In this document: positions 4,643-15,730 of the stretch, piece after piece
How positions within the stretch are numbered: position 1 is the first letter of the stretch
How the letters are laid out: every line of letters begins with the position of its first letter
IMG/VR virus record: IMGVR_UViG_3300030101_000053
Location: 1 to 22,721 of that record
Origin: a virus
Strand: one strand, 5' to 3'
DNA: 22,721 nt
Notes under the pieces: generated by a model
The model's database searches: none
Seen by the model: only the letters and a program-made list of their open reading frames with translations
Told to the model about the DNA's origin: nothing
Translations under genes and position numbers: made by a program

Positions 4643-6658
4643 CTATGCGATTGCGTAGAATATGTAGGTGTTACCTGATCTATTCAAATCATCAGTAGTA
4701 ACTTTAAAGCCAGAAGAGTCAGGCTGCATTGCGTTCCCCGCAAAAAACGAGGACTCAGGACTTTCTGCATCACCGCTATTTAATAACAAAACACCGTCAC
4801 TTGTTGCTGTGCTAATACCTCTTTCAGCATCGTAAACAATCCAGTTACCAGTGCCGCTGCTTTTTTTAATCAGCACAAACCTAGCACCACTACTAAAGCC
4901 ACAATCAATAGTCTGAACCACTGACTCACCATTTCCAGTATAGCTTCCCACCTTGGATACACCTGCTACGGTAGCGAAAAGGTAGGCTATGTAGGTGTTA
5001 CCGCTTGTACTCAATGCAGTTCCTGTTGAAAAACTAGATGCAGTTGGGGCAGTATCATTCAATGATGTGGTTGCGTTATTTTCAGCGCCTGATGTGTTTA
5101 TTCTAAGATGATAATCTTCTGGATTTGTACCACCGTTAAGATCCTTGTGATATACAAACCAGTTACTAACAGCATTACGACCTCTTAACCAGATCATTTC
5201 TGGCACTACACCAAGATTGTGATTTATGCTTGTACCTGCTGTTCCGTTTCCTGTGTAAGCAACCACATCGAAATAGCCAAGAGCACGCTTCCACTGCCAA
5301 TATACACCTCCGCTTAAATTTTTAGTAGACCCTGCTCTATTAATTAAACCTGAATTACTATCTAAGCTTGGATTGTTTGTGCTATAAGTTCCCTCTGCGT
5401 TTGTAACTTGTGTGCGAACTTGCGCACTTCTTCCTCGCAGCCGATCAACAACAAAAGTCTCACCACCACTTGAATAGTTATCATAGTGCATAAACATATC
5501 TACTGGAAAACCTGTTGTTGTAGCCAATGCATTATCGGCAACAGAAGAACCACCTATTTCAACATCAAAAACCTTAGTCGCATCATCTGGTACAGCTAGT
5601 GAACCACGTCTAATTGCCATGAAGATGTAGGTGTCACCAGAGTTATTAATAGCGCTATTAGTTGACTCAACATCAAAACCATTTGCTGTAAGTTTAATAA
5701 AGTTATCTTGTTGCTCTGAAACACTATAATTTGTTTGAAAGTATTTATCACCGTTTGTAATTCCTGATGTAATACCACGCATAGCATCCATCATAAACCA
5801 AGAGCCAGCACCACTAGTTGCACGTTTTAACAAAACAAACTGAGGCTCAAACCCAAGATTAACACTAGGGCCAGTTAATGAATTGTTCCCAGTATAACTC
5901 CCACACTTAATAATATCTTGGTCACTATCAGGGCCGAACCCACCGTCACTGTTGTTGTGTGCGAATACGTAGGCTACGTAGGTTTGACCCGATCCATTAC
6001 TTTTACTGCTTGTGCCAACACTAAAAACGGAATTAGTAGCATCCGTTCCATTAAACACGCTAGTGTTTACGCCAAGGAATTGAGCTGTGTCTTGTAGTTT
6101 TGAATAATAACCGCCACCCAATGATCTATGATATACCACCCAATCTTCTTGACTAGTCGTGCTTTTTATTATTATCATACCTGGAACTGATCCAAGATTA
6201 TGACTTATGGTTCTAGATGATCCATTTCCAGTATACGTCACAACATCAAAAAACTTAGAGGCTTTGCGAAATGTCCAAGCTACCATTCTATTACCAGAAG
6301 AGTTTTTATTTACGAGATCAGAATCATCTATTCCTAAAGAAAAACCATTTGAGTTAAATGCAGTTAAAGCGTTTGCCGTATTAGCTTGAGCAGCAGTTTC
6401 GGCTGTAATTAGAACCTTACCCACGCCTCTTTCTGTGTCAAATAAAGCATGAGCTCTTGATTGGTTACTTTTAATCCAAACCAAACCACCTTCACCACTA
6501 AGATCAATACCGTTATTTATGGATTGTGCAGACCCTGTTCCCTGATACAAAAATGTTGAGAAAGCGTCTGTAATATCAAGACCTGCACCTGCTGCTGCTC
6601 CACCAATGCCGCCAAAACTTCTAGCTGAAGCTGCACCAAATGTTGAAAGTAAAGGCAT
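4643..6658 (-). CDS. Repeat-containing tail/receptor-binding-type protein (DUF7483-like), copy 1
   Basis: This 671-residue protein is built mostly of five diverged copies of one unit of about 95-105 residues (roughly 38-130, 137-231, 248-349, 462-562 and 569-671). Each contains a YTGNG turn, a GF.P.FVLIK-like strand, a NW.vyd..RG block and a closing aromatic strand (TYVAYVFA, TYIFMAI, TYIAYLFA, TYIFYAIA). A Ser/Gly-rich insert at about 370-450 separates repeats 3 and 4. The paralogue at 688-2694 keeps the same five-unit order and very similar junctions such as DQDIIKCG.YTGN. This repeat family is common in marine phage tail proteins. A cell-surface binding role is inferred from position next to fibres; no catalytic motif is visible. 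The gene starts 10 nt after the long fibre gene. Confidence 0.8.
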   Translation of the reverse strand: MPLLSTFGAASARSFGGIGGAAAGAGLDITDAFSTFLYQGTGSAQSINNGIDLSGEGGLVWIKSNQSRAHALFDTERGVGKVLITAETAAQANTANALTAFNSNGFSLGIDDSDLVNKNSSGNRMVAWTFRKASKFFDVVTYTGNGSSRTISHNLGSVPGMIIIKSTTSQEDWVVYHRSLGGGYYSKLQDTAQFLGVNTSVFNGTDATNSVFSVGTSSKSNGSGQTYVAYVFAHNNSDGGFGPDSDQDIIKCGSYTGNNSLTGPSVNLGFEPQFVLLKRATSGAGSWFMMDAMRGITSGITNGDKYFQTNYSVSEQQDNFIKLTANGFDVESTNSAINNSGDTYIFMAIRRGSLAVPDDATKVFDVEIGGSSVADNALATTTGFPVDMFMHYDNYSSGGETFVVDRLRGRSAQVRTQVTNAEGTYSTNNPSLDSNSGLINRAGSTKNLSGGVYWQWKRALGYFDVVAYTGNGTAGTSINHNLGVVPEMIWLRGRNAVSNWFVYHKDLNGGTNPEDYHLRINTSGAENNATTSLNDTAPTASSFSTGTALSTSGNTYIAYLFATVAGVSKVGSYTGNGESVVQTIDCGFSSGARFVLIKKSSGTGNWIVYDAERGISTATSDGVLLLNSGDAESPESSFFAGNAMQPDSSGFKVTTDDLNRSGNTYIFYAIA

Positions 6659-13510: not shown

Positions 13511-14584
13511 TTACGCTGCGTTATATTTAGCAGTTACGATTGCTTCTGGACGAAGAATCTTTCTGCCGTATAGATGCATACCACGAACAATGTCAGCAAA
13601 GCTGTCAGGATCACGATATGTTTCAGTCTTACTGATCTGCTCTGCAGTTGCTACAGCAGAATCATGTCCAGCAACAATCACACCAAAGTTAGTGTTCTGG
13701 TTTGCAGAACCTGCAGTTCCTGAACCTGTACCTACGTGAGGAAGGTTAGAAGATACATACATTCTGAAGCCATGCATGTTGTTCAGCACTAGACCGTTAC
13801 GTAGAGCACCTGATTCACCGTAATCAGCATTTAAGAACCTTGAGTCCTCATCTGCTAAGATTTCCATGAATACTGGATCTACAACTAGCCATCTACCTTG
13901 TGAGTCAACTTGTTGTTGATCTAACAAACGTTTCATGCGTGATATAATCATCGCAGGAGAAACAGTTGCTGTTGGTAGTGCTGTTGCACCTGGTAGACGT
14001 GCTGCTACAGGAATTGAGTGATCTCCTGCAGAAGACGTTGTGATGTTACCAAATGAAGACTTGATAAGTTTCATTGAAGATAACAACTCGTCTGAACCTG
14101 CTGTTGCTACAGCTTTTGAACCATTTACTTGGTCATTGACTGTATCAGCATCAGTGTGTAGAGCAGACTGTTTGAAACCTGATAGATAGCCAAGAACTTC
14201 TTGGTCATGCTGATCAGCTAAACGGTATGCTGCACGGTTGGTAGCAAGATCCATAAAGTTGACATGTGAATGAGCTTCCTCAATATCGTCAATCTTAAAA
14301 GCATAGTAGTTTGCTTTATCAACGACTAGAGAGAAATCCTCATCGTCTAGATCTTGTGCATTTACCTGAGTCCCACGAGCATATGCGCTTACTGAGATTT
14401 CAGGTTCTTTGATGATCTTCACCGTATCACCTTGGGCAGCAATCTCCCCAAAGTAATCTGAATTGGTGATGTCACCGACTACTGTACTCTTGCGAAATGC
14501 AAGTTGTACTTTTTTGGAGTATATGATACTGGAAAAGTTACCGTTAGGTAAGTTACCGTATCCTCCTGCGGTTGTAAAAGCCAT
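13511..14584 (-). CDS. Major capsid protein
   Basis: This 357-residue protein has a typical capsid N-terminal region: NFSSIIYSKKVQLAFRKSTV, then FGEIAAQGDTVKIIKEPEIS and an acidic DLDDEDFSLVVDKANYYAFK segment followed by IDDIEEAHSHVNF. This pattern is shared by podovirus coat proteins of the P22/T7-like marine groups with an HK97-type fold. Later segments (DQQQVDSQGRWLVVDPVFME, GFRMYVSSNLPHVG) fit the same family. It follows the scaffold gene and has its own promoter and leader, consistent with being the most abundant product. AGGAGG lies 8 nt before the ATG at 14584, the best ribosome site I see in the window. Confidence 0.88.
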   Translation of the reverse strand: MAFTTAGGYGNLPNGNFSSIIYSKKVQLAFRKSTVVGDITNSDYFGEIAAQGDTVKIIKEPEISVSAYARGTQVNAQDLDDEDFSLVVDKANYYAFKIDDIEEAHSHVNFMDLATNRAAYRLADQHDQEVLGYLSGFKQSALHTDADTVNDQVNGSKAVATAGSDELLSSMKLIKSSFGNITTSSAGDHSIPVAARLPGATALPTATVSPAMIISRMKRLLDQQQVDSQGRWLVVDPVFMEILADEDSRFLNADYGESGALRNGLVLNNMHGFRMYVSSNLPHVGTGSGTAGSANQNTNFGVIVAGHDSAVATAEQISKTETYRDPDSFADIVRGMHLYGRKILRPEAIVTAKYNAA

Positions 14585-14591
14585 GATAAAA

Positions 14592-14598
14592 TCCTCCT
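14592..14598 (-). promoter_or_regulatory. Strong ribosome-binding site of the capsid gene
   Basis: The minus strand reads AGGAGGA ending 7-8 nt before the capsid ATG, a full Shine-Dalgarno match. Neighbouring genes mostly have partial ones (AAGGGA, AGGAA), so translation of the capsid gene is probably favoured. Confidence 0.75.
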
Positions 14599-14662
14599 GA
14601 TATTTGGCTTGAATTAAGCTTAAACATCTAAAAGGGGCTGTACGTTTTCTAGGGTGCAGTTA

Positions 14663-14686
14663 ATATTTACTTGCGCTAGCAAATAT
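14663..14686 (-). other. Second leader hairpin before the capsid gene
   Basis: Within the capsid leader, ATATTTGCT-AGCGCA-AGTAAATAT forms a 9-pair stem with one G-U and a 6-nt loop, extendable by two pairs (one more G-U). It lies about 80 nt before the ribosome site. It is AT-rich and moderately stable; a role in mRNA stability or translation control is a guess. Confidence 0.4.
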
Positions 14687-14747
14687 CACTGGGCCTATAC
14701 TTGTCCAGGTAGTTCTTCTTAGTTTAGACTCTTTATGAATTTGGGTG

Positions 14748-14780
14748 TGACAAAAGGTAGTCAAAAAGAGGCTTTTGTCA
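14748..14780 (-). promoter_or_regulatory. Inverted repeat at the predicted 5' end of the capsid mRNA
   Basis: A perfect 9-bp inverted repeat TGACAAAAG-N15-CTTTTGTCA lies just downstream of the capsid promoter -10 box. The predicted transcript would begin about 5 nt before it, so it could form a 5' stem-loop protecting the mRNA. As DNA it could instead be a repressor operator. The first arm overlaps a second TTGACA at 14776-14781. Confidence 0.5.
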
Positions 14781-14791
14781 ACATACCCATA

Positions 14792-14819
14792 GTTATACTG
14801 CTGAAAATTGATTTGTCAA
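14792..14819 (-). promoter_or_regulatory. Sigma70-type promoter upstream of the major capsid gene
   Basis: Consensus TTGACA (14814-14819) is followed after 16 nt by TATAAC (14792-14797), read within the longer TATAACTAT. It lies between the scaffold and capsid genes, overlaps no coding region except the last scaffold codon area, and predicts a start near 14785, giving a leader of about 200 nt before the capsid ATG. It suits host RNA polymerase, and no phage polymerase gene is in the window. Confidence 0.65.
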
Positions 14820-14824
14820 CAGTT

Positions 14825-15730
14825 TTATCTAGCTTTGCCAGATACATCGTAAACAAATTTACCCGAACGGATAGCTTTGTTAATAACGTCAGCTTTCTCT
14901 TCAAATTCCTTATCGGACATTTTAGCGACATCTGACTCACGAATTGCGTCATTTGCATCTTCTACGTCTACTTGTGTCTTAGTACGTTTAGTTACAGTAG
15001 AAGCTGCATCTTTAGCTTTTGCTTTCTTTGCAGTTTTTGTAAGACCTTTATCTACTTTATATAGATCTATAACACGAACTACAGAAGCTGGATCATCTGA
15101 GTTTTCATATAGTGCATCTTGAACCCACTTTGGCTGTTCATCAGCCCAGTTATGAAATTCTTCTGAAGCTCGTAGGTCATCAAAGTCTTCATGAGATTTT
15201 CTAATCTCAGTTTCAGCTTTTACTCTTTCGGCTTCTGATTGCACTTTCTTTAAATCTTTTAGCTGTTGTTCAGCTTTTTCAAACTTTTCTTGAGCTTTTC
15301 TAGCAGCAATAGTTTCTACAACACCTGCAATATCTGGATACTCTTTTGCCCACTCCTCTATGTCTTCATCAGACTTAGGTGGTATAATAGAGTCTTTCTT
15401 TAAACGTTCTTCAAAGGTTTTAAACTTTTCGTCCCATTCTTTTTCTTTTTCTTGCATATGCCGTCTTAAATCGCCATAACGCTTTTTAAACGATTTTTCT
15501 TCAGCAGATAACGTTTCTTCTTTAACTTCTGTATCGGCCTCTTTCGTTTCGGTAGCTTCTTCTTCTGGTTGCTGTTCTTCGTCAGTTGGTTTTTCTCCAC
15601 GTTGTTCAGCTTCAAGTTTACGAATCTCCTCTTCTTCGGCTTCCATCCTACTACGTTTCTTTTCGTAGTTGTAACCTCGGTCAACAAATCCTGCTGTCTT
15701 TTGTGTTTCTACTTCTGCTAATTCAGGCAT
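14825..15730 (-). CDS. Capsid scaffolding protein
   Basis: This 301-residue protein is highly charged. It has a Glu-rich N-terminal third (acidic from about 30 to 80), heptad-like helices at 85-112 and 140-180, then SEEFHNWADEQPKWVQDALY near 189-208 and a basic Lys/Ala-rich stretch at about 229-252. Long coiled coils with a basic helical region near the C-terminus are the hallmark of podovirus scaffolds, which bind coat protein through the C-terminal part. Its place immediately upstream of the capsid gene fits. The last about 15 residues (SGKFVYDVSGKAR) close the protein at TAG. The ATG at 15730 follows AAAAGGAAAAAAT. Confidence 0.82.
   Translation of the reverse strand: MPELAEVETQKTAGFVDRGYNYEKKRSRMEAEEEEIRKLEAEQRGEKPTDEEQQPEEEATETKEADTEVKEETLSAEEKSFKKRYGDLRRHMQEKEKEWDEKFKTFEERLKKDSIIPPKSDEDIEEWAKEYPDIAGVVETIAARKAQEKFEKAEQQLKDLKKVQSEAERVKAETEIRKSHEDFDDLRASEEFHNWADEQPKWVQDALYENSDDPASVVRVIDLYKVDKGLTKTAKKAKAKDAASTVTKRTKTQVDVEDANDAIRESDVAKMSDKEFEEKADVINKAIRSGKFVYDVSGKAR

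Follow-up and report, generated by a model that had tools for sequence, protein, structure and literature searches.

Which signals does the 240-nt gap in front of the major capsid gene carry, and how might they act on capsid synthesis? The window analyzed here is the complete IMG/VR record IMGVR_UViG_3300030101_000053 with its 22,721 nt. Its long structural genes—terminase, portal, a charged protein, coat, and adaptor/tail genes—lie on the minus strand, as do all of the leader features described below. The major capsid gene (13511–14584; P22-like coat, PHROG 267, E 1e-60) is separated by the gap (14585–14824) from an upstream gene at 14825–15730, whose charged product falls into PHROG 13678 of unknown function and is probably scaffold-like. 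The coat protein shares 81% identity with those of Roseobacter phages CRP-13 and CRP-9 and 72.5% with that of Puniceispirillum phage HMO-2011; by sequence comparison, the window is an HMO-2011-type phage. Elsewhere in the window, two minus-strand ORFs of about 670 aa (688–2694 and 4643–6658) resemble paralogues, with similar N termini and repeated blocks.

For comparison, 80 capsid loci were gathered independently of the gap, and further ones were added via the coats of HMO-2011, CRP-345, and CRP-2; isolates and loci from a scan with the leader motif were also taken into the locus set. The phages are divided here into window-like (group A), HMO-2011-like (group B), and CRP-2-like (group C) members.

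The gap carries a promoter. A −35 element TTGACA (14814–14819) and a −10 element TATAAC (14792–14797), separated by a 16-nt spacer, lie where the initial annotation had placed them, and transcription would start about 7 nt past the −10 element, near 14785, as judged from the spacing. The pattern TTGACA-N15–18-TATAAC occurs once in the 22.7-kb window, while 0.05 occurrences are expected from shuffled sequences (5 of 100 shuffles contain one or more). A general sigma-70 scanner missed this promoter because it requires T at position 6 of the −10 element. Among 219 distinct upstream regions of groups A and B, 201 carry exactly TTGACA-N16-TATAAC and nine more the N17 form (210/219), whereas the promoter of group C is mostly TTGACA-N16-TAAAAC. 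The flanks and most of the spacer are variable, above all in group A; the TA following the −10 element, which was not a selection criterion, is near-invariant among the relatives. Phage genomes contain one to four promoters of this type, and all 11 records searched have a copy at the capsid gene. With a TTGAC −35, a TANAWC-type −10, and suitable spacing, the element has the features of an alphaproteobacterial RpoD promoter, for which the Caulobacter consensus is TTGaCgS (−35) and GCtANAWC (−10) (PMC8144410). On comparative grounds, the capsid gene has, as the initial annotation had proposed, a dedicated host-type promoter, and nearly all relatives keep it. In several phage genomes, TTGACA-N16-TAAAAC also stands close to one of the ends (MK613343.1, 53337–53364, and similar places), where it may mark early promoters. 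In T7, phi10 is a dedicated promoter before capsid gene 10 within the structural gene block and is read by the phage polymerase. The parallel with phi10 that had been drawn for this locus holds for the position and fails for the mechanism, as the promoter of the window is of host type.

Downstream of the −10 element follows the perfect 9-bp inverted repeat that had been reported, TGACAAAAG (14780–14772) and CTTTTGTCA (14756–14748), enclosing a 15-nt loop. Taken alone, this repeat is at chance level: two such repeats are present in the window versus 0–4 in Markov shuffles, and the chance of finding one inside the 240-nt gap is about 2%. The shuffles thereby rule out the isolated repeat as significant by itself, and the comparison with related phages had to decide. 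In alignment A1, which comprises 43 leaders aligned on sequence only, the outer stem of the hairpin—P1, 14748–14780, TGACAAAAG-[CC]-UC...GA-[CUAC]-CUUUUGUCA, that is, the inverted repeat together with a conserved internal loop—is paired in 82% of cells and shows two-sided changes at eight of nine pairs (for one pair, AU 20, GC 15, UA 4, and CG 2), and the inner UC/GA is paired in 96.5%. The compensatory changes that the initial annotation had named as its own test are thus present: the P1 sequence drifts while the pairing is kept. The linker between P1 and the next helix (14731–14722) includes a conserved stretch, (A/G)AGUCUAAAC, which the window has as GAGUCUAAAC; its AGUCU might base-pair with the GGAUU that directly follows the Shine–Dalgarno (SD) sequence.

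P1 is followed by a nested core. The leader measures about 201 nt from the predicted start, in agreement with the approximately 200 nt estimated before, and the second hairpin already noticed there is real, being the top of this longer structure. The core is closed by P2 (14632–14717), in which AAGA (14717–14714) pairs with CCUU (14635–14632) and, beyond an internal loop ACUAC/CC, CUG (14708–14706) pairs with CAG (14640–14638). The lower 3′ strand reads UCUU in most relatives, which leaves the window with one A·C mismatch; lower P2 shows two-sided changes at all four pairs (alignment A4), and across the groups the upper part varies between CUG/CAG, CUA/UAG, and CUC/GAG, with GC, AU, or CG as the third pair. 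For group A alone, RNAalifold chose a local hairpin CCUG/YAGG in place of the long-range P2, which is contradicted by groups B and C, where the long-range CUR..YAG pairing is supported. Inside P2, P3a (14651–14696) pairs AGG (14696–14694) with CCU (14653–14651) around an internal loop CC/CAC, which is ACUAC in CRP-2-like phages; its outer pair occurs as AU and UA types, with mismatches in some group B rows. The apical hairpin P3b (14657–14691), CAG-UGAUAUUUGC/GUAAAUAUUA-CUG with the terminal loop UAGCGCAA containing a palindromic GCGC, carries two-sided changes at 11 of 12 counted pairs (for example UA 16, GC 12, and AU 10), the remaining pair being invariant. The P3b loop (14678–14671 and equivalents) is mostly a 4-nt palindrome—GGCC in 114 distinct domains or GCGC in 23—that would suit loop–loop dimers, and reads GGCA or GGCG in eight. 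P3b also appears modular: at some loci (L065, L069, L070, L073, L084, L085, L110, L147, L203, L208, and L341) the GGCC/GCGC-loop hairpin is swapped for others (for instance a UGAUCA-loop type or ...CCGTAAAATGATTGATTTTACTTTAGGCCGTAAA), even among otherwise similar leaders, and at L016 and L080 it is much shortened.

Taken together, P1, P2, P3a, and P3b are paired in 88.1% of cells of A1, against 71.5% in shuffled alignments and at most 43% when the structure is slid along the alignment. Two-sided changes occur at 22 of 33 pairs, and the covariation score is 0.450, a value reached by none of 500 shuffles, as compared with 0.164 for shuffled alignments. Compensatory changes thus exceed both the shuffled and the slid controls, as is expected of a conserved structured RNA. 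A covariance model, R1, built from 31 cores of group A only, detects the core outside this group too, namely in groups B and C and in the isolates HMO-2011, CRP-1, -2, -3, -9, -13, -212, -345, and the freshwater spring phage ctYwJ313; its 63 distinct matches have a covariation score of 0.551 versus 0.196, on an alignment fitted to the model. As these comparisons indicate, the inverted repeat is the first helix of a structured leader of about 200 nt and no isolated protective hairpin.

A recurring feature of the structure is an asymmetric internal loop, 5′ CC opposite (N)YNAC or CAC, which is found in each helix: AAG-CC-UC/GA-CUAC-CUU in P1, CUG/CAG flanked by ACUAC/CC in P2, and GG-CC-C/G-CAC-CC in P3a. 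CRP-212 carries it as AGU-[CCAC]-CAGUGA...UCACUG-[CC]-ACU. In Rhizobium phages and in Sinorhizobium phage phiM6, visual inspection and folding reveal a compact form with two copies of the loop, for example AAAGA-[CUAC]-CCAUA...UAUGG-[CC]-UCUUU around UUAG-[CC]-...-[AUAC]-CUAA; these compact forms have no evident promoter and are undetected by R1 at E 1. As a lead only, the loop is reminiscent of the C-loop, an RNA 3D motif known from T-box stem I, another asymmetric internal loop rich in C and capable of recurring within helices.

The RNA is tied to the capsid gene. R1 searches of whole records gave a match in 17 of 25, each time one strong match and always in the capsid leader, all remaining matches having an E of 0.01 or more. 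Matches of the leader motif in viral contigs are directly followed by the capsid gene in 118 of 119 cases, and in the remaining case the contig breaks off after a further 97 bases. The exact leader pattern had no match in cellular genomes, and capsid matches there were limited to six contigs in bacterial or archaeal metagenome-assembled genomes (MAGs), which are probably misbinned phage DNA. Contigs with this capsid gene that agree in size (62,825 and 55,371 bases), range, and name occur in two unrelated MAGs, Flavobacteriales TMED123 and Neomarinimicrobiota MED589 (L434–L437), which also looks like misbinning. The Pelagibacter phages HTVC033P and HTVC115P carry neither promoter nor leader, their capsid gaps measuring 32 and 58 nt, and in MW202701.1 an HNH endonuclease-like gene (815–1384) lies within the capsid leader, with the promoter on one side of it and the core RNA on the other. 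None of the 4227 families of Rfam 15 matched at its gathering score, the matches seen being at chance level, and the open-access papers searched contained no description of this leader. Measured against these two sources, the structured capsid leader is a new RNA family and, as far as the sequences compared reveal, one common to a large group of mainly marine phages.

How could this RNA bear on translation? The SD sequence of the capsid gene, GGAGG (14593–14597), lies 8 nt 5′ of the ATG at 14584, and the 3′ part of the leader is predicted to fold into an anti-SD hairpin, P4 (14593–14635), on the basis of folding and of compensatory changes in group C. Here, CCUUUU (14635–14630) and GAUGUUU (14628–14622) pair with AAAUAUC (14605–14599) and AGGAGG (14598–14593). 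The CCUCUU strand directly past the core is shared by two mutually exclusive helices: it forms either P2 (AAGA/UCUU) or P4 with the SD sequence. In the predicted folds it captures the SD sequence in 29 of 29 leaders of group A and 11 of 11 of group C, whose intervening sequence differs. For group A, P4 folds with a mean of −14.2 kcal/mol versus −9.2 kcal/mol with a randomized middle (among 100 shuffles, the lowest mean was −10.2 kcal/mol); with a shuffled middle, 21.8 of 29 leaders still pair the SD sequence, since CCUC resembles an anti-SD anyway. Among 33 distinct leaders of group C, the two strands co-vary: CUCUUUA with UAAGGAG (16), CUUUCA or CUUUUCA with UGAAAGG (11/12), CUUUCA with UGAAAGGA, and CUUUUA with UAAAGGAG (4). 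When P4 of group A was tested alone by a plain alignment, the covariation did not exceed that of shuffled sequences (0.071 versus 0.076), the alignment being poorly registered. In group B, which includes HMO-2011, 26 of 45 leaders pair the SD sequence with the CCUCUU strand; for these leaders the comparison supports the core and not clearly the SD hairpin. The alternative of two mutually exclusive helices, one of them hiding the SD sequence, is hence clear in groups A and C and not in B.

The predicted accessibility points in the same direction, with a mean probability of the SD sequence being unpaired of 0.23 (group A) and 0.13 (group C), against 0.32–0.91 for ten other SD sequences of the window; for the majority of these genes the SD sequence is more accessible than for the capsid gene. 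Under standard parameters, the P2 and P4 states differ by only about 2.9 (A) and 3.5 (C) kcal/mol. Against a switch speaks that forcing P2 leaves the SD sequence predicted open in only 19 of 53 (A) and 6 of 13 (C) folds. Overall, what the comparison shows is a conserved promoter, a conserved RNA structure, a restriction to the capsid gene, and, in different groups, selection for both alternative helices.

We propose that, placed behind a host promoter, the leader works as a bistable switch of translation, by which the capsid mRNA would stay locked until the core is stabilized; we give this reading a probability of about 0.6. Host RNA polymerase would start at TTGACA-N16-TATAAC, making the capsid gene a separate transcription unit. 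In the nascent leader, P1 and the core (P2–P3b) might fold first, with CC-UCUU closing the core via AAGA-ACUAC. Once the SD sequence emerges, CCUCUU could leave P2 and pair with AGGAGG, and P4 would block ribosome binding; capsid output would then be set by whether the core stays closed. P4 would be the default, so that a promoter read by the host does not yield capsid too early. Late in infection, a phage protein—the coat included—or a metabolite might bind the CC/(N)YNAC loops, stabilize the core, and free the SD sequence. Transcription itself, the order of folding, the sense in which control runs, and whether a ligand exists and which one it is belong to the inferred part of this model. The narrower proposal of a riboswitch class, in which two to three copies of the loop would sense a late-infection metabolite or phage protein and unlock capsid translation in marine phages and, in compact form, in Rhizobium and Sinorhizobium phages, is speculative and rather improbable.

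SD-hiding helices have precedents in T4, where those of gene e, soc, 49, and I-TevI prevent premature synthesis and delay lysozyme and other late products (PMC3014915). Like these, the capsid leader places the predicted SD sequence inside a stable helix of a phage mRNA. T4 gene e escapes its lock through a second, shorter late transcript (PMC3014915), whereas here the lock would reside within the sole predicted transcript, with a second conserved helix competing for the same strand: a search for promoters of the TTGACA/TATAAC type found only the one upstream of both P4 arms and no second, late promoter that would remove the 5′ arm. As in translational riboswitches, an upstream folded domain has a closing strand that doubles as the anti-SD strand; the likeness is one of helix geometry, and the leader matches none of the 4227 Rfam families and precedes one phage gene only.

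Several other readings have to be weighed against the switch. Autogenous repression, in which free excess coat or scaffold protein binds the repeated loops and stops capsid synthesis, P4 being either the repressed state or a neutral one, is possible, if somewhat unlikely. In its favor, the element accompanies the coat gene and occurs at no other place in the phage records searched, and the internal loop is present in two to three copies, which might form a multivalent site for a protein. Structured leaders serve this purpose for gp32 and gp43 of T4 (PMC3014915); those operators bind their own protein, and the capsid leader differs from them in fold, with no pseudoknot found or required. However, the gapless relatives HTVC115P, CHOED, and Slicky01 have the same coat family and lack the RNA.

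The view of the initial annotation, that a host-type promoter and a protected leader boost capsid mRNA, can be extended to a protective or ribosome-standby leader that raises mRNA stability and capsid yield without switching. A strong conserved promoter, a hairpin located right at the 5′ terminus, and a product needed in abundance fit this; yet a stabilizer would need neither an SD sequence hidden in all 29 and all 11 leaders nor coupled changes of SD and anti-SD strands, nor near-invariant internal-loop sequences, and we judge it unlikely. What stands of that view is the host promoter and the 5′ stem, not simple protection or boosting as the job of the stem, which belongs to a large conserved RNA; the predicted hiding of the SD sequence by the 3′ part of this RNA points to control of translation, not only to a boost. 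A dimeric or trans-acting RNA, for instance in packaging, acting through loop–loop contacts of P3b could draw on the usually self-complementary loop, which swaps GGCC for GCGC and is replaced by UGAUCA in other domain types. Such a role is very unlikely given that no terminator separates the leader from the capsid gene, that the GGCA and GGCG loops break the pattern, and that P3b can be much reduced. Last, the position of the repeat directly downstream of the −10 element might suggest an operator at which a repressor binds the DNA to control the promoter, but the stem sequence is unconserved and both of its sides change together, as an RNA helix would and a protein-binding DNA site would not; we rejected this reading as scarcely credible.

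The switch reading is directly testable, as the RNA is present in the cultured phages CRP-9, CRP-13, HMO-2011, and phiM6, and a two-state model makes sharp mutational predictions. Phages without an RNA polymerase of their own need capsid late and in excess, and a promoter read by the host, together with a lock on translation, would account for how they can manage both.
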